NCBI GenBank assembly: GCA_030428255.1
Contig: JAUIBT010000002.1
Location: forward strand, 1 to 64,000
DNA: 64,000 nt
Reading direction: 5' to 3'
Source: Alphaproteobacteria bacterium
Lineage (GTDB): Bacteria; Pseudomonadota; Alphaproteobacteria; UBA7985; JAUIBT01
Both the position numbers and the translations under genes were made by a program. Below the pieces are notes generated by a model, which was not told the DNA's origin, searched no databases, and saw only the letters and a list, made by a program, of their open reading frames with translations. How positions within the stretch are numbered: the first letter of the stretch is position 1; each line of letters begins with the position of its first letter. Shown here in pieces: positions 30,954-41,533 of the stretch.

Positions 30954-32051
30954 TTATCGCGTACAGATGTAGGTGTCTAGGCAGTTTCTAGCACAGCGAC
31001 CTGGGGATTTGGGATAGGTCATCGATCCATTGTCGCGGCAGCGGCTCCGGCAGTGTTGAAGCTGAGCATAGCAGCCTGGGTCCTTGTCAACTTGCGGCGA
31101 GAACAGCAGCGGCGCGGCTTGTACTTGAGCCGCTTGGGCGGGCCGAGTCACCTCGGTTGGCTGGGGCGATGGGGCAAGCGCACTGTCTTGGGCCGGCGCG
31201 GGCTGTGTAACGGGCGCGGGCTGGGCGTACTGTGGCAGGATCGACGGGCGACCTTGCGGGCGAATGGCAAAACGGCCAACCGTGCCATCCTTGGCCACAG
31301 GCTCGCTGGAACGGCCAAAGCGGGGCTGGCCAGCTGGGCCGGCGGTCTTCGGCGAAAACGGCAAGCTGCGTTGCGCGAGCACCGGGTCTTGCCGTGCGGG
31401 CGCCGCGCTTGAGCGGCGCGCCACGCGTGGTTGGCCCAGCGTGACTTGACCCAGCGTGACTTGACCCAGCGTGATTCGACCCAGCGTGATTTGACCCTGC
31501 GCCAGTGCAGTGCGCAGGCTCAGGCCATAGCGCCATACCAACTGGCCTGGGTCACCATCCAACAGGGCCAAGTCCTCGACGCCCCCTTTGCCAACCAGTC
31601 GCAAGCCCGCAGGCACGCGCTGGACGCCATAGCAAAGCCGCTGCTTATCTTGTAGGCAAAGCTGGTTCGCAACCACGCCCCAGCGCAGATAAGAAAGATA
31701 GCCGCCTTGCTCGCGATAGGCCGAGCCGCTGGGCAGCAGATAGAGGCGGCTGCCATCGGCGCGCACCAGCGTGCGCCGCACCAAGAGCGCCGCAATCATG
31801 GAGTGATCGAGCGTCCGCCACATCTGGCTTCCAAGCGCCTGACCTCCAAGCGCCTGACCTCCAAGCGACCGGGCATTAAGAGATTGGGCCGCCGCTGGTC
31901 CAAGCGTCGGGGCGACCCCTAAGCCGGTGAGCATCAAGGCAACACCGACCAGCGCCGCGCAGGCCTGCAAGCACTCTGTCCAGCCTTTCAAGCCGGAATG
32001 CTGTAAACTGCGATGATGTAGCAGGTGTGCGGCCACCGGTGGTCGTCCCAA
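30954..32051 (-). CDS. Secreted repeat-bearing protein with a Cys-rich C-terminus, unknown function
   Basis: This 365-residue protein matches no family I know. A basic N-terminus is followed by a hydrophobic signal-like segment (about 31-55, ending GPAAAQS). Then come short repeats (GGQALGGQALG), a central domain of about 110 residues with two Cys (LCLQDKQRLCYGVQ), a stretch of [IV]TLG[QR] repeats, a long Pro/Gln/Ala-rich linker, and a C-terminus with seven Cys in 36 residues (pattern C-x6-C-x3-C-x14-C-x3-C-x5-C), which suggests disulfide bonds in the periplasm or outside. It is upstream of the DUF952-pyrD run. The initiation codon is uncertain. Confidence 0.65.
   Translation of the reverse strand: MGRPPVAAHLLHHRSLQHSGLKGWTECLQACAALVGVALMLTGLGVAPTLGPAAAQSLNARSLGGQALGGQALGSQMWRTLDHSMIAALLVRRTLVRADGSRLYLLPSGSAYREQGGYLSYLRWGVVANQLCLQDKQRLCYGVQRVPAGLRLVGKGGVEDLALLDGDPGQLVWRYGLSLRTALAQGQITLGRITLGQVTLGQVTLGQPRVARRSSAAPARQDPVLAQRSLPFSPKTAGPAGQPRFGRSSEPVAKDGTVGRFAIRPQGRPSILPQYAQPAPVTQPAPAQDSALAPSPQPTEVTRPAQAAQVQAAPLLFSPQVDKDPGCYAQLQHCRSRCRDNGSMTYPKSPGRCARNCLDTYICTR
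31441..31500. repeat. Four 15-bp tandem repeats in the secreted-protein gene
   Basis: Four successive 15-bp units beginning GTGA (31441, 31456, 31471, 31486) differ by one to three bases and encode a TLG-containing pentapeptide. A second array of 15-bp units lies at 31829-31868 in the same gene and encodes GGQAL. Confidence 0.9.
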
Positions 32052-35688: not shown

Positions 35689-37092
35689 TCACGGCCCCCA
35701 GGTCGGCGGACTGCTCTTATAAGGCCCGGCGGGATGCCGCCACTTTGGCCCCTTACCATCCAAGGAAAGCGGAAACCGCAGGCGACGCAGCGGTCCCCAA
35801 GCCGTTTGCTCCAAGCCAGCGGCAAAATCCGGTTCGCCAGCCTTTAACATCGCACCCTGCAAGCCATCACGCCGACTGGTCGCCAACACGGTCGCCGTGC
35901 GCGCCAGGCTGAGCCGCGCCGCAAAGCGCTGACCGGAGCGCGCGCGTTCGGCCAACACCTGACAAGCCGCCGCCGCTGCCAGATAGCCCGTCGCGTGGTC
36001 CAACGCCTGCACCGGCAGCATGACCGGCGCTGCATCCTGGTCGCCCTGGCGGCCATAATCCGCCAAACCGCTGGACTGCTGTACCACGGTGTCGAAGCCG
36101 CGGCGCTGCTGCCAAGGCCCGGCCCAGCCGTAGGCGTTCAGCGCAACATCCACCAGGCGCGGGTTAAGGCGCGCCCGCTCCTCAGCGCCATAGCCAAGCC
36201 CCTCCAGCGCACCATCGCGATAGCCATGCACCAGCAGATCAGCCTGGCTCAGCAGGCGCTCGAAACTCAGGCGATCCGCGCGCTGCGAAAGGTCGAGCTC
36301 GGCGCAACGCTTGCCCAAGGCCATCTCAATGGCCACGGCCTCTTCGCCCCACTGCGGCGGGTCGATCCGCAAAACCTCAGCGCCAAAGCCTGCCAGCAAG
36401 CGGGTCGCGGCCGGGCCCGCCAGCACCCGTGTGAGGTCCAGAACCTTGAGCCCCGCCAAGGGCTGGTGGCCGCTGATCTGCTGTCCCGCCGCTGTATCGG
36501 CGGCGCCCGAACCCAAGAGCGTCCAGGCCACCAAAGGCTGTTGCATCACCGCTTGGCCTGGCTCCATGGCCTGCCATTCGTCGAAACTGCGCAGCTTGGC
36601 CGCGCAGCCCCCGGCCTCGATAACTGCGGCCTCCAGCGCCTCGCCGTTCCACCGCGCCACCAACCGCGCCAGCGCAGGCTTGTCCTCAGCGGGGCCCAAC
36701 ACAGACAGGGCCGCCGCGCGGTGGTGGGCGGCGTTGGTGTGCAGCCTCAACCAACCGTCCTGCGTGCGATAGTTGCCCGCCAGCGGGTCCCACATGCTGG
36801 GCAGATCCCAGCCCTGGGCGGCCATGCTTCGGTCGAACCAAAGCGACGCCAAGCGGCGATTCAAGGTGGCAGTTGGCAGGGAAAAACCGCGCGCCTGCGC
36901 CAAGTCCGCCAAGCTGCGCCCCGCTTGCGCCAAGCTGGCACAAGCCAAGTCGGACACGGCAAACCAAGCGCACCAATCTTGGCCGGAGGTGTCTTGGTCC
37001 TGCTCGTCTTGCACAGGCAGTCGCGGATTCAGGCTCAGCGGCGCAAAGGCCTCAGCGATGGTGGTATCAAACAGCAGGCGGGCCGGACTCAC
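35689..37092 (-). CDS. CaiB/BaiF (class III) CoA-transferase family protein, apparently permuted
   Basis: The 467-residue protein carries class III CoA-transferase sequence in an unusual order. Residues about 100-150 (DPLAGNYRTQDGWLRLHTNAAHHRAAALSVLG) resemble the C-terminal half of CaiB. From about 210, LAGLKVLDLTRVLAGPAATRLLAGFGAEVLRIDPP and NAYGWAGPWQQRRGFDTVVQQSSGLADYG resemble the N-terminal half. Members move CoA between carboxylic acids. I could not locate the catalytic Asp with confidence, so activity is uncertain. Its GTG start overlaps the stop of the HPr-like gene as GTGA, so it is co-translated with a regulatory operon (chvI-chvG-rapZ-HPr-like). A functional link is unknown. Confidence 0.8.
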   Translation of the reverse strand: MSPARLLFDTTIAEAFAPLSLNPRLPVQDEQDQDTSGQDWCAWFAVSDLACASLAQAGRSLADLAQARGFSLPTATLNRRLASLWFDRSMAAQGWDLPSMWDPLAGNYRTQDGWLRLHTNAAHHRAAALSVLGPAEDKPALARLVARWNGEALEAAVIEAGGCAAKLRSFDEWQAMEPGQAVMQQPLVAWTLLGSGAADTAAGQQISGHQPLAGLKVLDLTRVLAGPAATRLLAGFGAEVLRIDPPQWGEEAVAIEMALGKRCAELDLSQRADRLSFERLLSQADLLVHGYRDGALEGLGYGAEERARLNPRLVDVALNAYGWAGPWQQRRGFDTVVQQSSGLADYGRQGDQDAAPVMLPVQALDHATGYLAAAAACQVLAERARSGQRFAARLSLARTATVLATSRRDGLQGAMLKAGEPDFAAGLEQTAWGPLRRLRFPLSLDGKGPKWRHPAGPYKSSPPTWGP

Positions 37093-37403
37093 GCCTCGTC
37101 CTCGGTCGGCTCCAGATCAAAGCGACGCGCGATCAGGGCTTGCAGCGCGTCGAGCGCCGGGCCAGCTTGCGGACCTTGGGCGCGGAACATCACCACCGCA
37201 CCTTGCGGAATGCGCAACTCCGTCACGTCCAGCAAGGAATCCGCTTCAGCCTCGCGCCCGTGGCGCTCCAGCAAGATCTGCGCGCGGTACTGCTCGACGC
37301 AGCGCACCATCTGAGTTGCGGCTGCCAGGTCGATGCCACGGCGGTTGAGGATCGTGGCCCGCATGCGGGTAGCGGCGGGTTCGGGCAGGCCGTTAGGCTG
37401 CAT
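37089..37403 (-). CDS. HPr-like protein lacking the phosphorylatable histidine
   Basis: The 104-residue product has the HPr fold pattern: RATILNRRGIDLAAATQMV (HPr has T-x-V-N-x-x-G-L-H-A-R-P/A-A), then ADSLLDVTELRIPQGAVVMFRAQGPQAGPALDALQALI. Asp25 (codon GAC, 37329-37331) stands where the active-site His15 would be, and the following Arg is Ala, so phosphotransfer from Enzyme I is not expected. The Ser region (EADSLLDV) is kept. The ATG at 37403 overlaps the rapZ end by 11 bases and has AAGGA 7 bases upstream. HPr is usual at this place in alphaproteobacteria, with hprK and EIIA, neither of which I find here. It may be a regulator that no longer carries phosphate. Confidence 0.72.
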   Translation of the reverse strand: MQPNGLPEPAATRMRATILNRRGIDLAAATQMVRCVEQYRAQILLERHGREAEADSLLDVTELRIPQGAVVMFRAQGPQAGPALDALQALIARRFDLEPTEDEA

Positions 37404-38427
37404 GCGACGGTCCTTTTTTCTGCTCGTCTTGCGGCGAAGAGGCCTCTGATGAGTGCGACGTGCCCTGGCTATCTGCGGGCGGCTCGAATTTGCTGAACAG
37501 GCCCAGGACCTGATGGCGCAAGCTGACGCGATAGCCGCGCTTGTTGGCCCAAGCCGCCAGGCGCTCAGCCATATAGACAGAGCGGTGCTTGCCCCCACTA
37601 CAGCCTACAGCGACCGTCAGGTAGGACTTGCCCTCCTGACCATAGCGGCGCAGCGATAGGCCCAACAAATCGGTCAAGCGCTTGAAATAGGCCTTAAAAT
37701 CTTCGTCTTCGCTGACGTAGCGCTGCACGGCGGGATCGCGCCCCGTCTGTGCACGCAGGTTCGGGTCATAGTGCGGGTTGCGCAAAAAGCGCACGTCAAA
37801 CACCAGATCGGCCGAGCGCGGCAGCCCGTCTTTATAGGCAAAGCTGATAAAATGCAGCGCCAAATCGCCCTGCAACAGCCCCACCACCCGCGAGGCCACC
37901 ATGTGGCGCAAGTCCGGAATGCCGGTGTGCGAGGTGTCGATCACCAAATCAGCTTGATCGCGCAGGCTGGCCATGAGCTGCCGCTCTTGGCCGATGCCGT
38001 CATTCAGCGGGCGGTCGGGCGCCAGCGGGTGACGACGGCGGGTCTCGTTAAAGCGGCGCTGCAACACCTCGTCGTCGGCGTCCAAGAACAGCAGCGTTAC
38101 TTGCAGACTGGACAAAGAGCGCATGGTGTTGACCAGGTCCAAGATCACCAAAGGCTCAAAACCGCGCGTGCGCACGTCCAAGCCCAAAGCCAGCGGCGCG
38201 CGGCCCGCAGTCCCGTCTTCGCCGCTAGAGCCCGCCAAAGCCTGCCCCCACAGATCCAGCGGCATGTTGTCGATGGCTTCGAAACTCAGGTCCTCAAGCG
38301 CGCGCAGCACCGACTGCTTGCCCGCCCCGGACATGCCAGTGACGATGATGACCTGGCGCTGGCCAGGGCTCACCGCTCGCGGCTCGTCGGCCTCGTCTGC
38401 GCTAGGGTGTGGTTCGGTCATACGCAT
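37393..38427 (-). CDS. rapZ: RNase adapter protein RapZ/YvcJ family
   Basis: RapZ-type proteins bind nucleotides and, in enterobacteria, present small RNAs to RNase E to control amino-sugar synthesis. The 344-residue protein has an N-terminal P-loop domain and the conserved C-terminal domain VAVGCSGGKHRSVYMAERLAAWANKRGYRVSLRHQ. The P-loop is GMSGAGKQ (about 31-38): the residue after Lys is Gln, where Ser or Thr normally helps bind Mg, followed by the usual S-x-L-R-A-L-E-D. Nucleotide handling may therefore differ. It lies between chvG (236-base gap) and the HPr-like gene, which overlaps its end. Confidence 0.92.
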   Translation of the reverse strand: MRMTEPHPSADEADEPRAVSPGQRQVIIVTGMSGAGKQSVLRALEDLSFEAIDNMPLDLWGQALAGSSGEDGTAGRAPLALGLDVRTRGFEPLVILDLVNTMRSLSSLQVTLLFLDADDEVLQRRFNETRRRHPLAPDRPLNDGIGQERQLMASLRDQADLVIDTSHTGIPDLRHMVASRVVGLLQGDLALHFISFAYKDGLPRSADLVFDVRFLRNPHYDPNLRAQTGRDPAVQRYVSEDEDFKAYFKRLTDLLGLSLRRYGQEGKSYLTVAVGCSGGKHRSVYMAERLAAWANKRGYRVSLRHQVLGLFSKFEPPADSQGTSHSSEASSPQDEQKKGPSHAA

Positions 38428-38663
38428 TCACTCAACAAGCAGCAGCACGTCGGTTATTCCGCCAGCTCATGCCACGCGCCCGCGTGCCGTCAGAGGCGAT
38501 GGCTCAGGCGATGGCTCAGGCCGCAATCCGGCGTCAGCGGCTAGGGTGTGAGAAGGGCAGGTCACGTCACAGATCCGGTGTTGGGCGCTCGCTAGGCGGC
38601 GAAAGGCAGGCGGCAAAGGGTCTGGGCATGTTAAGGGCATTGCACGGCCCAGAGCAAGGGGGC

Positions 38664-40463
38664 TCAACGCTCGGGCGCTGAGATTTCGGTTTCATTATTG
38701 CGGTCACGATAGGCCGGCAGCAACACTGAGAAGCGGGCACCGCGCGCCGCGCCACCCTCGTCGCGCAGGGTTTCCGCCCAGATCTGCCCCTTGTGGGCTT
38801 CGACGATCTGACGGCAGATTGACAGCCCCAGCCCCGAATGATTGCCAAAGCCTTGATGGTCCGGGCGGTCGGTGAAGAAGCGGCTGAAGATTTTTTCCTC
38901 TTTGCCATCGGGCAGGCCAGGGCCCTCATCTTCGACCATAATCAGGATTTGGCGGCCCTCGACACGATCAGCAAAGACGCGAATGCAAGACTTCGGTGGC
39001 GAGAAGCTGGCAGCGTTGGTGACCAAATTGCTCAGCACTTGGCCAAGGCGTCCTTCCAGGCCCAAGACGTTCAGCGCGTCACGCTCAGGCAGGTCCAACT
39101 CTAAGACCGGCCAGCCCTGTTTGCGGGTCATGTTGTAGGACTCTGAATAGGTACGAAGCATCTCAACAATCGACAAGCGTCTGCCGTTCGAGCGCGACAT
39201 CTCTGTATCAATGCGCGAGGCGTTGGAGATATCGGTGATCAAACGGTCCAAGCGGTCAACGTCGTTGATGATGATGTCAGCCAAGATTTTGAACTTCTCA
39301 GGATCTTTAACCATTTTGGCGGTCTCAACCGCCGAGCGCAAAGAGGTCAGCGGGTTCTTGATCTCATGGCTTACATCGGCAGCAAAGGACTCAATCGCGC
39401 TCAGGCGTTGCCACAGCGCGTTGGTCATCTCTCGCAGCGCCACCGACAGATCGCCGATTTCATCGTGGCGATAGGACAAGTCAGGAATCGTCACCTGGCG
39501 CGATTTGCCGGTGCGCACCAGGTCGGTGGCCAACGCCAGGCGGCGAATGGGGCGCGCGATGGTCCAGGCCAAATAGGCCGATAGCACCAGCGTCACCAGC
39601 GAGGCGACGGCCAGAATTTGCAAGATGAGCAATCGGACCGCGTTGACCTCGGCCTCGATCTCCGTTTGGTCGCGCGACAGCATCAAAGAGCCCAGCACGC
39701 GGCGATACGCGCGCACCGGCACCCCGACCGACACCACTAGATTGCCGCCATCGTCCACCCGAACTTGCGAGGACTGCACGCCCCTGAGCGCCGCATCGGC
39801 TTCTTCATAGCTGGCCGCGGTCTGGATCACGGGCTCAACATAAGCTGGCAGGTTTGAGCGGCGTGAGCCCAGGTCGAACAACCAGGTCAAGAAGGGCACG
39901 CCTTGATCATCGCGAATGGGCGAGACCTTGATCGGAATTGACGCGCGATGACCCAAGAAGCTGTCGGACAACAGCTCCCCGTCTGGGCGGAAGACCCGCA
40001 GGCGCGCGTTGGTGTTGCGCGCCAAAATCAGAGCCAGATAAGCCACGCGCTGCGATGACAGCTCCTGGCGGCCATCGTCCTGGGCAACCGCCCCGCCCTC
40101 GCCCAGCGAGTTGGCGATCAGCACTGCCTCGCGCCGCAGCGACTCGATTTCGGCTTCGATCAAGGCGTCGCGATAACGATCCGCCCACAAAAAGCCAAGC
40201 ACCGGGATGGCCACCACCACCAGGTTGATCAGCAGGATGCGGACATAGAGAAAAGACAGGCGCGATTCCTGCCAGGCCAAGCGCTTGGACTTGGGTCGCG
40301 CAAGATCGGTCAACAGATCGATGAGGCCCAAGAACTTGTTGCCCGCAAATCTGCTGCCGCCATGCAGGCTGCGCAAGGTTCGCCCGCTTGCGCCGCGCAT
40401 GCCTTGCCAGACGCGCAGCATTCCGCAGCGCGCGCGATCAAGAAAGGGGCGAGAACTGGACAA
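38664..40463 (-). CDS. chvG: Sensor histidine kinase ChvG
   Basis: ChvG senses acid or envelope stress in alphaproteobacteria and phosphorylates ChvI. The 599-residue protein has a first membrane helix near 70-90 (LSFLYVRILLINLVVVAIPVLGFL), a periplasmic stimulus-sensing domain, a second helix at about 275-300 (LLILQILAVASLVTLVLSAYLAW), a HAMP segment, the phosphoacceptor box FAADVSHEIKNPLTSLRSAVE and an ATPase domain with N box (LSNLVTNA) and G boxes (DEGPGLPDG, NHSGLGLSIC). It is separated from chvI by an unusually long 368-base gap that holds tandem repeats. Confidence 0.94.
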   Translation of the reverse strand: MSSSRPFLDRARCGMLRVWQGMRGASGRTLRSLHGGSRFAGNKFLGLIDLLTDLARPKSKRLAWQESRLSFLYVRILLINLVVVAIPVLGFLWADRYRDALIEAEIESLRREAVLIANSLGEGGAVAQDDGRQELSSQRVAYLALILARNTNARLRVFRPDGELLSDSFLGHRASIPIKVSPIRDDQGVPFLTWLFDLGSRRSNLPAYVEPVIQTAASYEEADAALRGVQSSQVRVDDGGNLVVSVGVPVRAYRRVLGSLMLSRDQTEIEAEVNAVRLLILQILAVASLVTLVLSAYLAWTIARPIRRLALATDLVRTGKSRQVTIPDLSYRHDEIGDLSVALREMTNALWQRLSAIESFAADVSHEIKNPLTSLRSAVETAKMVKDPEKFKILADIIINDVDRLDRLITDISNASRIDTEMSRSNGRRLSIVEMLRTYSESYNMTRKQGWPVLELDLPERDALNVLGLEGRLGQVLSNLVTNAASFSPPKSCIRVFADRVEGRQILIMVEDEGPGLPDGKEEKIFSRFFTDRPDHQGFGNHSGLGLSICRQIVEAHKGQIWAETLRDEGGAARGARFSVLLPAYRDRNNETEISAPER

Positions 40464-40831: not shown

Positions 40832-41533
40832 TTAGGCGTCGCGGTAGCGATAGCCTACGCCATAGAGGGTCTCAATCTGATTGAACTCATCGTCGGTCTG
40901 CTTGAATTTCTTGCGCAGGCGCTTAATGTGCGAATCAATGGTGCGATCATCGACATAGATGTGCTCGCCATAGGCCGCGTCCATCAGTTGATCGCGGGTC
41001 TTGACGTGCCCAGGGCGCGCCACCAGCGATTTGAGGATCAAGAACTCGGTCACTGTCAGCGTGACAGGCGTGTCCTTCCACAAGCACTGGTGCTTGATGG
41101 GGTCCAAAGTCAGATGGCCACGCACCAGCGCCTCTTCGCTCTTCTCCGAAGAGGCCGCCTCGCTGGCGGCCTGCTTGCGGCGCAGAATCGCGCGGACCCG
41201 CTCGATCAGTAGGCGGTGGCTAAAGGGCTTGGTGATGTAGTCATCCGCCCCCATGCGCAGGCCCAAAACCTGGTCAACTTCGGTGTCAGCCGAAGTCAAG
41301 AAGATCACAGGAACGTTGGATTGGCTGCGCAGGCGGTTCATGACCTCAATGCCGTCCATACGGGGCATTTTGATGTCCAAGATCACCAGGTCAACCGGCT
41401 GAACGGCAAGGGTCTTCAGCGCTTCGGAGCCATCGGTAAAGCTGCGAACGACAAAGCCTTCGTTTTCAAGACTGATGGCAACAGAGGTCAAAATATTGCG
41501 GTCATCATCGACCAAAGCGATGGTGTGTTGCAC
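40832..41533 (-). CDS. chvI: Response regulator ChvI (OmpR family)
   Basis: The 233-residue protein has a receiver domain ([23 protein letters not shown]; phosphoacceptor Asp in [17 protein letters not shown]; Thr/Lys in VIFLTSAD and [22 protein letters not shown]) and an OmpR-type winged helix ([52 protein letters not shown]), the exact form seen in ChvI. It starts with GTG at 41533, with AGGGA about 10 bases upstream. In relatives pckA is divergent to chvI; it is not present in this window. Confidence 0.95.

Follow-up and report, generated by a model that had tools for sequence, protein, structure and literature searches.

Bacillus subtilis Crh is a protein of HPr fold that lacks the phosphorylatable His15, its residue 15 being Gln. 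It is a paralogue of a coexisting HPr, and HprK phosphorylates it at Ser46. The chvIG-hprK-manX-type operon that is usual in alphaproteobacteria has been described (PMC2937029, PMC13104625), and in the gamma-proteobacterial rpoN operon rapZ adjoins ptsO (PMC13104625). HPr genes without EI have been reported in Bartonella and Ureaplasma (PMC2405797). Replacement of His15 by Asp is known from engineered HPr (PDB 1cm2, 1cm3, and 3ccd; strain in PMC3526391), and in these laboratory mutants Arg17 is kept.

The HPr-like gene described here lies at 37089..37403 on the minus strand of the window (the whole stretch of 64,000 nucleotides that was analysed) and encodes 104 amino acids. It shares with canonical alphaproteobacterial HPr/NPr (ptsH/ptsO) the family, the position after rapZ, and the Ser46 position, but His15, Arg17, EI, HprK, and EIIA-Man are all missing, and the helix-B stretch is changed. 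Crh is similar in lacking the phosphorylatable His; here, however, there is neither a second HPr nor HprK, and the residue is Asp. An identity with Crh was therefore rejected, in spite of the retained Ser. The engineered mutants carry the identical substitution at the identical site, whereas the present one is natural and both Arg17 and EI are gone. The likeness to the Bartonella and Ureaplasma genes consists in the retention of HPr after the loss of EI; in the genus the His is lost as well. The kind is thus already known (Crh; HPr without EI), but for a natural Asp variant as the sole HPr no earlier report was found in the open-access literature, which yielded only the engineered His15Asp.

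Family and active site of the HPr-like protein

The protein matches the Pfam PTS-HPr profile PF00381 at 57.3 bits (cut-off 23; E=1.6e-15) over positions 4-80 of 81, and narrowly passes the cut-off of NCBIfam TIGR01003 (48.9 versus 47.9 bits). With both scores over the cut-off, the match to HPr is far beyond chance. A sequence search of the PDB gave a best E of 2e-07, with solved structures of Crh among the matches. When the predicted model (moderate confidence, pLDDT 66) was compared by Foldseek, ranks 1-36 were all HPr or Crh, and the match to another fold that the initial annotation had named as refuting did not appear. As judged from its sequence and predicted fold, the protein belongs to the HPr family, and its gene is orthologous to the ptsH/ptsO gene (HPr/NPr) with which the alphaproteobacterial operon chvI-chvG-hprK-rapZ-manX-ptsH ends. 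A search of the draft genome of the window for a second HPr, which the same annotation had called for, found none; the gene is the single copy of the genome, and it is kept in three species of the genus.

At the active site the loop sequence is NRRGIDLAAA; most alphaproteobacterial HPr copies show NxxGLHARAA there. In the alignment with 70 His-bearing HPr copies, Asp25 (codon GAC, 37329..37331, minus strand) occupies the position of the phosphorylated His15, and Ala27 (GCA, 37323..37325, minus strand) that of Arg17. The initial annotation had proposed an HPr relative with Asp in place of the phosphorylated His and with the neighbouring Arg lost, and the profile match and the alignment agree with it on both residues. 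Ser56 (TCC, 37236..37238, minus strand) aligns with Ser46, the target of HprK, and is retained despite the absence of this kinase. The helix-B stretch is SLLDVTEL versus SIMGLMML. Given the additional loss of Arg17 and the altered helix-B residues, the protein is not an HPr locked through a single point mutation. With Asp25 in three species, Ala27, and no EI in the same (draft) genome, the protein belongs to the HPr family without being a PTS phosphocarrier. The claim that this relative is unable to serve as the usual His phosphocarrier is thereby supported, and all three species of the genus share the Asp.

The replacement is rare. Among the HPr copies read from relatives, 70 of 75 have G[ILF]H[AT]R, and the five without the motif are the three of the genus and two of a sister family (f2). 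HPr is present in 285 of 387 sampled alphaproteobacterial genomes, and the nine weak-scoring copies, which are those read from this sample, all have GLHAR or GLHSR. Outside the clade, His is therefore found in all 79 HPr copies read (the 70 from relatives and the nine weak-scoring ones). Two low-scoring HPr copies of another lineage (L167 and L168, in G366 and G157) still have GLHAR and adjoin rapZ and EIIA-Man.

The three species of the genus permit an estimate of the selection on the gene. Its product in the window shares 88% and 85% identity with those of the other two species, and the dN/dS values of the gene against them are 0.054 and 0.059; between the other two species the value is 0.129, from a pair aligned over a longer frame that includes unconserved upstream codons. 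The values are rough, because dS is near or above 1. For comparison, dN/dS is 0.08-0.18 for rapZ, 0.08-0.11 for chvG, and 0.15-0.20 for the adjoining CoA-transferase gene, while chvI is far stricter; the 0.05-0.06 of the window gene is below the first three. The Asp is encoded by GAC in all three species and stands within the invariant stretch ATILNRRGIDLAAAT. The orthologue alignment thus gave Asp throughout, and the His in close relatives that might have pointed to a mere point mutation is absent from the genus. The HPr-like gene is under purifying selection in the genus. The presence of Asp in all three species, together with dN/dS of about 0.05-0.13, excludes both a sequencing error and decay of the gene.

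Gene neighbourhood and loss of the phosphorelay

The gene order, all on the minus strand, is as follows. A chvI-type response regulator gene (40832..41533; Response_reg and Trans_reg_C) adjoins a chvG-type sensor histidine kinase gene (38664..40463; HATPase, HisKA, HAMP, and sensor domains), for which the best NCBIfam match is ChvG, under the cut-off. After a gap of 236 bases (38428..38663) comes rapZ (37393..38427; NF003828, 307 bits, over the cut-off), the end of which overlaps the start of the HPr-like gene by 11 nt. The stop of the latter is overlapped by the start of a CoA-transferase family III gene (35689..37092; PF02515, E=9e-49). Both other species of the genus share this order; the 11-nt overlap is conserved in them, and the CoA-transferase gene has an equal position. 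No link to a defence system was found by PADLOC.

In a third family of the order (f3; G004 and G006), hprK, rapZ, EIIA-Man, and HPr follow in sequence, the HPr with GLHAR, and in G004 chvI and chvG stand ahead of hprK-rapZ-manX-ptsH. Measured against this order, the window lacks the hprK that would separate chvG from rapZ and the manX that would separate rapZ from the HPr-like gene. In the chvG-rapZ gap, which is the site of hprK in relatives, no remnant of hprK was found above noise. The locus had been annotated as a chv-rapZ operon lacking hprK, and this holds to the extent that the chvIG operon, apart from the loss of hprK and EIIA-Man, has its genes in the normal order; hprK has no match across the genome and is absent from all three genomes of the genus.

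The loss extends beyond the operon. The N-domain of EI (PF05524), HprK (PF07475), and EIIA-Man (PF03610) have no match in the three genus (f1) and the sister-family genomes, while all three are present in f3; the search for ptsP that had been proposed accordingly left EI (PtsP) undetectable in all three genus genomes. TIGR01417 gives only partial hits under the cut-off in f1 and f2. Since f3 has similar hits besides its own EI, these are read as another PEP-utilising enzyme, e.g., pyruvate phosphate dikinase. All genomes compared are draft assemblies, and the genus relatives of the window's genome are metagenome bins. An absence in a single genome is weak evidence, because the window's genome, at an estimated completeness of 99%, has no rpoB match, and assembly gaps exist. 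The claim of absence is carried by the agreement of the three genus and five sister-family genomes; a sixth sister-family genome, G009, is 63% complete and stands outside the five.

EIIA had also been reported as not found. This is correct for EIIA-Man but not for EIIA-Ntr (PtsN), which each of the three genus genomes has, so that the EIIA side is not wholly gone. Of these three, the copy read is that of the window's genome (G000:C55:27986-28411, locus L086); despite the absence of a recognisable EI, it retains the phosphorylatable His (GIALPH), and the same is true of PtsN in the sister family.

The rpoB tree, built without the outgroup row G024 (a very long branch, probably in a wrong reading frame), groups the genus with f2 (99/97) and places f3 as sister to both; the grouping of the genus with f3 is rejected (p-AU 0.014). 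Because the tree unites the two altered families, the simplest account is a single loss of EI, HprK, and EIIA-Man prior to the f1/f2 split. In f2, a much altered HPr-like gene follows rapZ in two genomes (33 and 27 bits), with Leu at the aligned His position, although the alignment is uncertain; the Asp is thus not retained clade-wide. The gene was not found after rapZ in three f2 genomes, in one of which the contig ends soon after rapZ. Within the order, the states therefore form a natural series that runs from an intact relay through Asp-HPr and a degenerate HPr to none found.

Possible functions of an HPr without phosphotransfer

Since His15 and Arg17 are lost and the gene is nevertheless under purifying selection, the protein appears to work without the usual carrying of phosphate. 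The account that we favour, and consider rather probable, is that of a phosphotransfer-dead HPr acting as a binding protein of fixed (constant) state, perhaps for RapZ or PtsN. In the clade, EI-Ntr as the phosphoryl donor, HprK as the Ser kinase, and EIIA-Man as an acceptor have been lost; the genus protein has also lost His15 and Arg17 while still under purifying selection. It may thus do permanently what dephospho-HPr/NPr does part-time in other proteobacteria, and the Asp may help to hold one binding state.

Dephospho-HPr and NPr are presumed to have targets of their own, which are hard to separate from phosphotransfer. As the donor, the kinase, one acceptor, and the His are gone but selection persists, anything bound by the present protein would represent a phosphotransfer-independent function of HPr. 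In E. coli, dephospho-NPr has an effect on LpxD and on envelope stress (PMC4635465), which is a precedent for action in the dephospho state. The likeliest candidate partners would be RapZ, the gene of which overlaps here and adjoins ptsO in the rpoN operon of gamma-proteobacteria, or the retained PtsN. In f2, neither of them needs the HPr-like protein, because the gene has decayed or been lost there while rapZ and ptsN are kept.

The loss of the phosphorelay, the degenerate or missing gene in the sister family, and the overlaps with rapZ on one side and the CoA-transferase gene on the other might instead be taken to indicate a functionless relic that persists since its removal from overlapping operon frames would be harmful. 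The overlaps, however, span only a few bases, dN/dS is 0.05-0.06, and a 15-residue active-site stretch is invariant between species with saturated synonymous sites, so a relic is unlikely. That the change is an artefact of one assembly (point mutation, sequencing error, or contamination) deserves practically no credence. The congeners are metagenome bins, but three assemblies with 84-88% protein identity have the same change and the same gene order, and this agreement refutes it. Control by phosphorylation of Ser56 only, as in Crh, would be in keeping with the retained Ser, but as HprK is absent in all three genus genomes it is highly improbable.

The remaining alternatives give Asp25 an active part. 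His15Asp HPr is able to accept phosphate, and a non-PTS donor, for example ChvG or acetyl phosphate, might phosphorylate Asp25. Asp is a possible phosphoacceptor and chvG lies within the same gene run, but the acidic pocket of response regulators is absent from the protein and no histidine kinase is known to phosphorylate HPr; this is very unlikely, even though the PDB titles of 1cm2 and 3ccd refer to ringed and post-succinimide His15Asp HPr. Alternatively, Asp25 could act as a natural phosphomimic and lock the protein in the state that HPr adopts when its His is phosphorylated. The Asp is invariant across three species, and in T. saccharolyticum His15Asp served as a phosphomimetic (PMC3526391), but Arg17, a contact of the phospho-His site, is lost as well, and Leu stands at the (uncertainly) aligned position in the sister family, which makes mimicry quite doubtful. 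A rewired switch in the wider sense, with Asp25 either a permanent mimic or phosphorylated by a non-PTS donor such as ChvG, is likewise given only a small probability; if true, an abandoned PTS carrier would have been turned into a part of a ChvG/RapZ route.

The P-loop of RapZ (38311..38337, minus strand) reads GMSGAGKQS, with Gln after Lys. The GAGKQS is found in RapZ of all three genus species, while in nearly all other alphaproteobacterial copies seen the Lys/Arg is followed by Ser or Thr. The unusual Gln hints at, but does not prove, a joint change.

Elsewhere in the window, the minus-strand ORF at 30954-32051 contains short internal repeats (ALGGQALGGQALGS, TLGQVTLGQVTLGQ).
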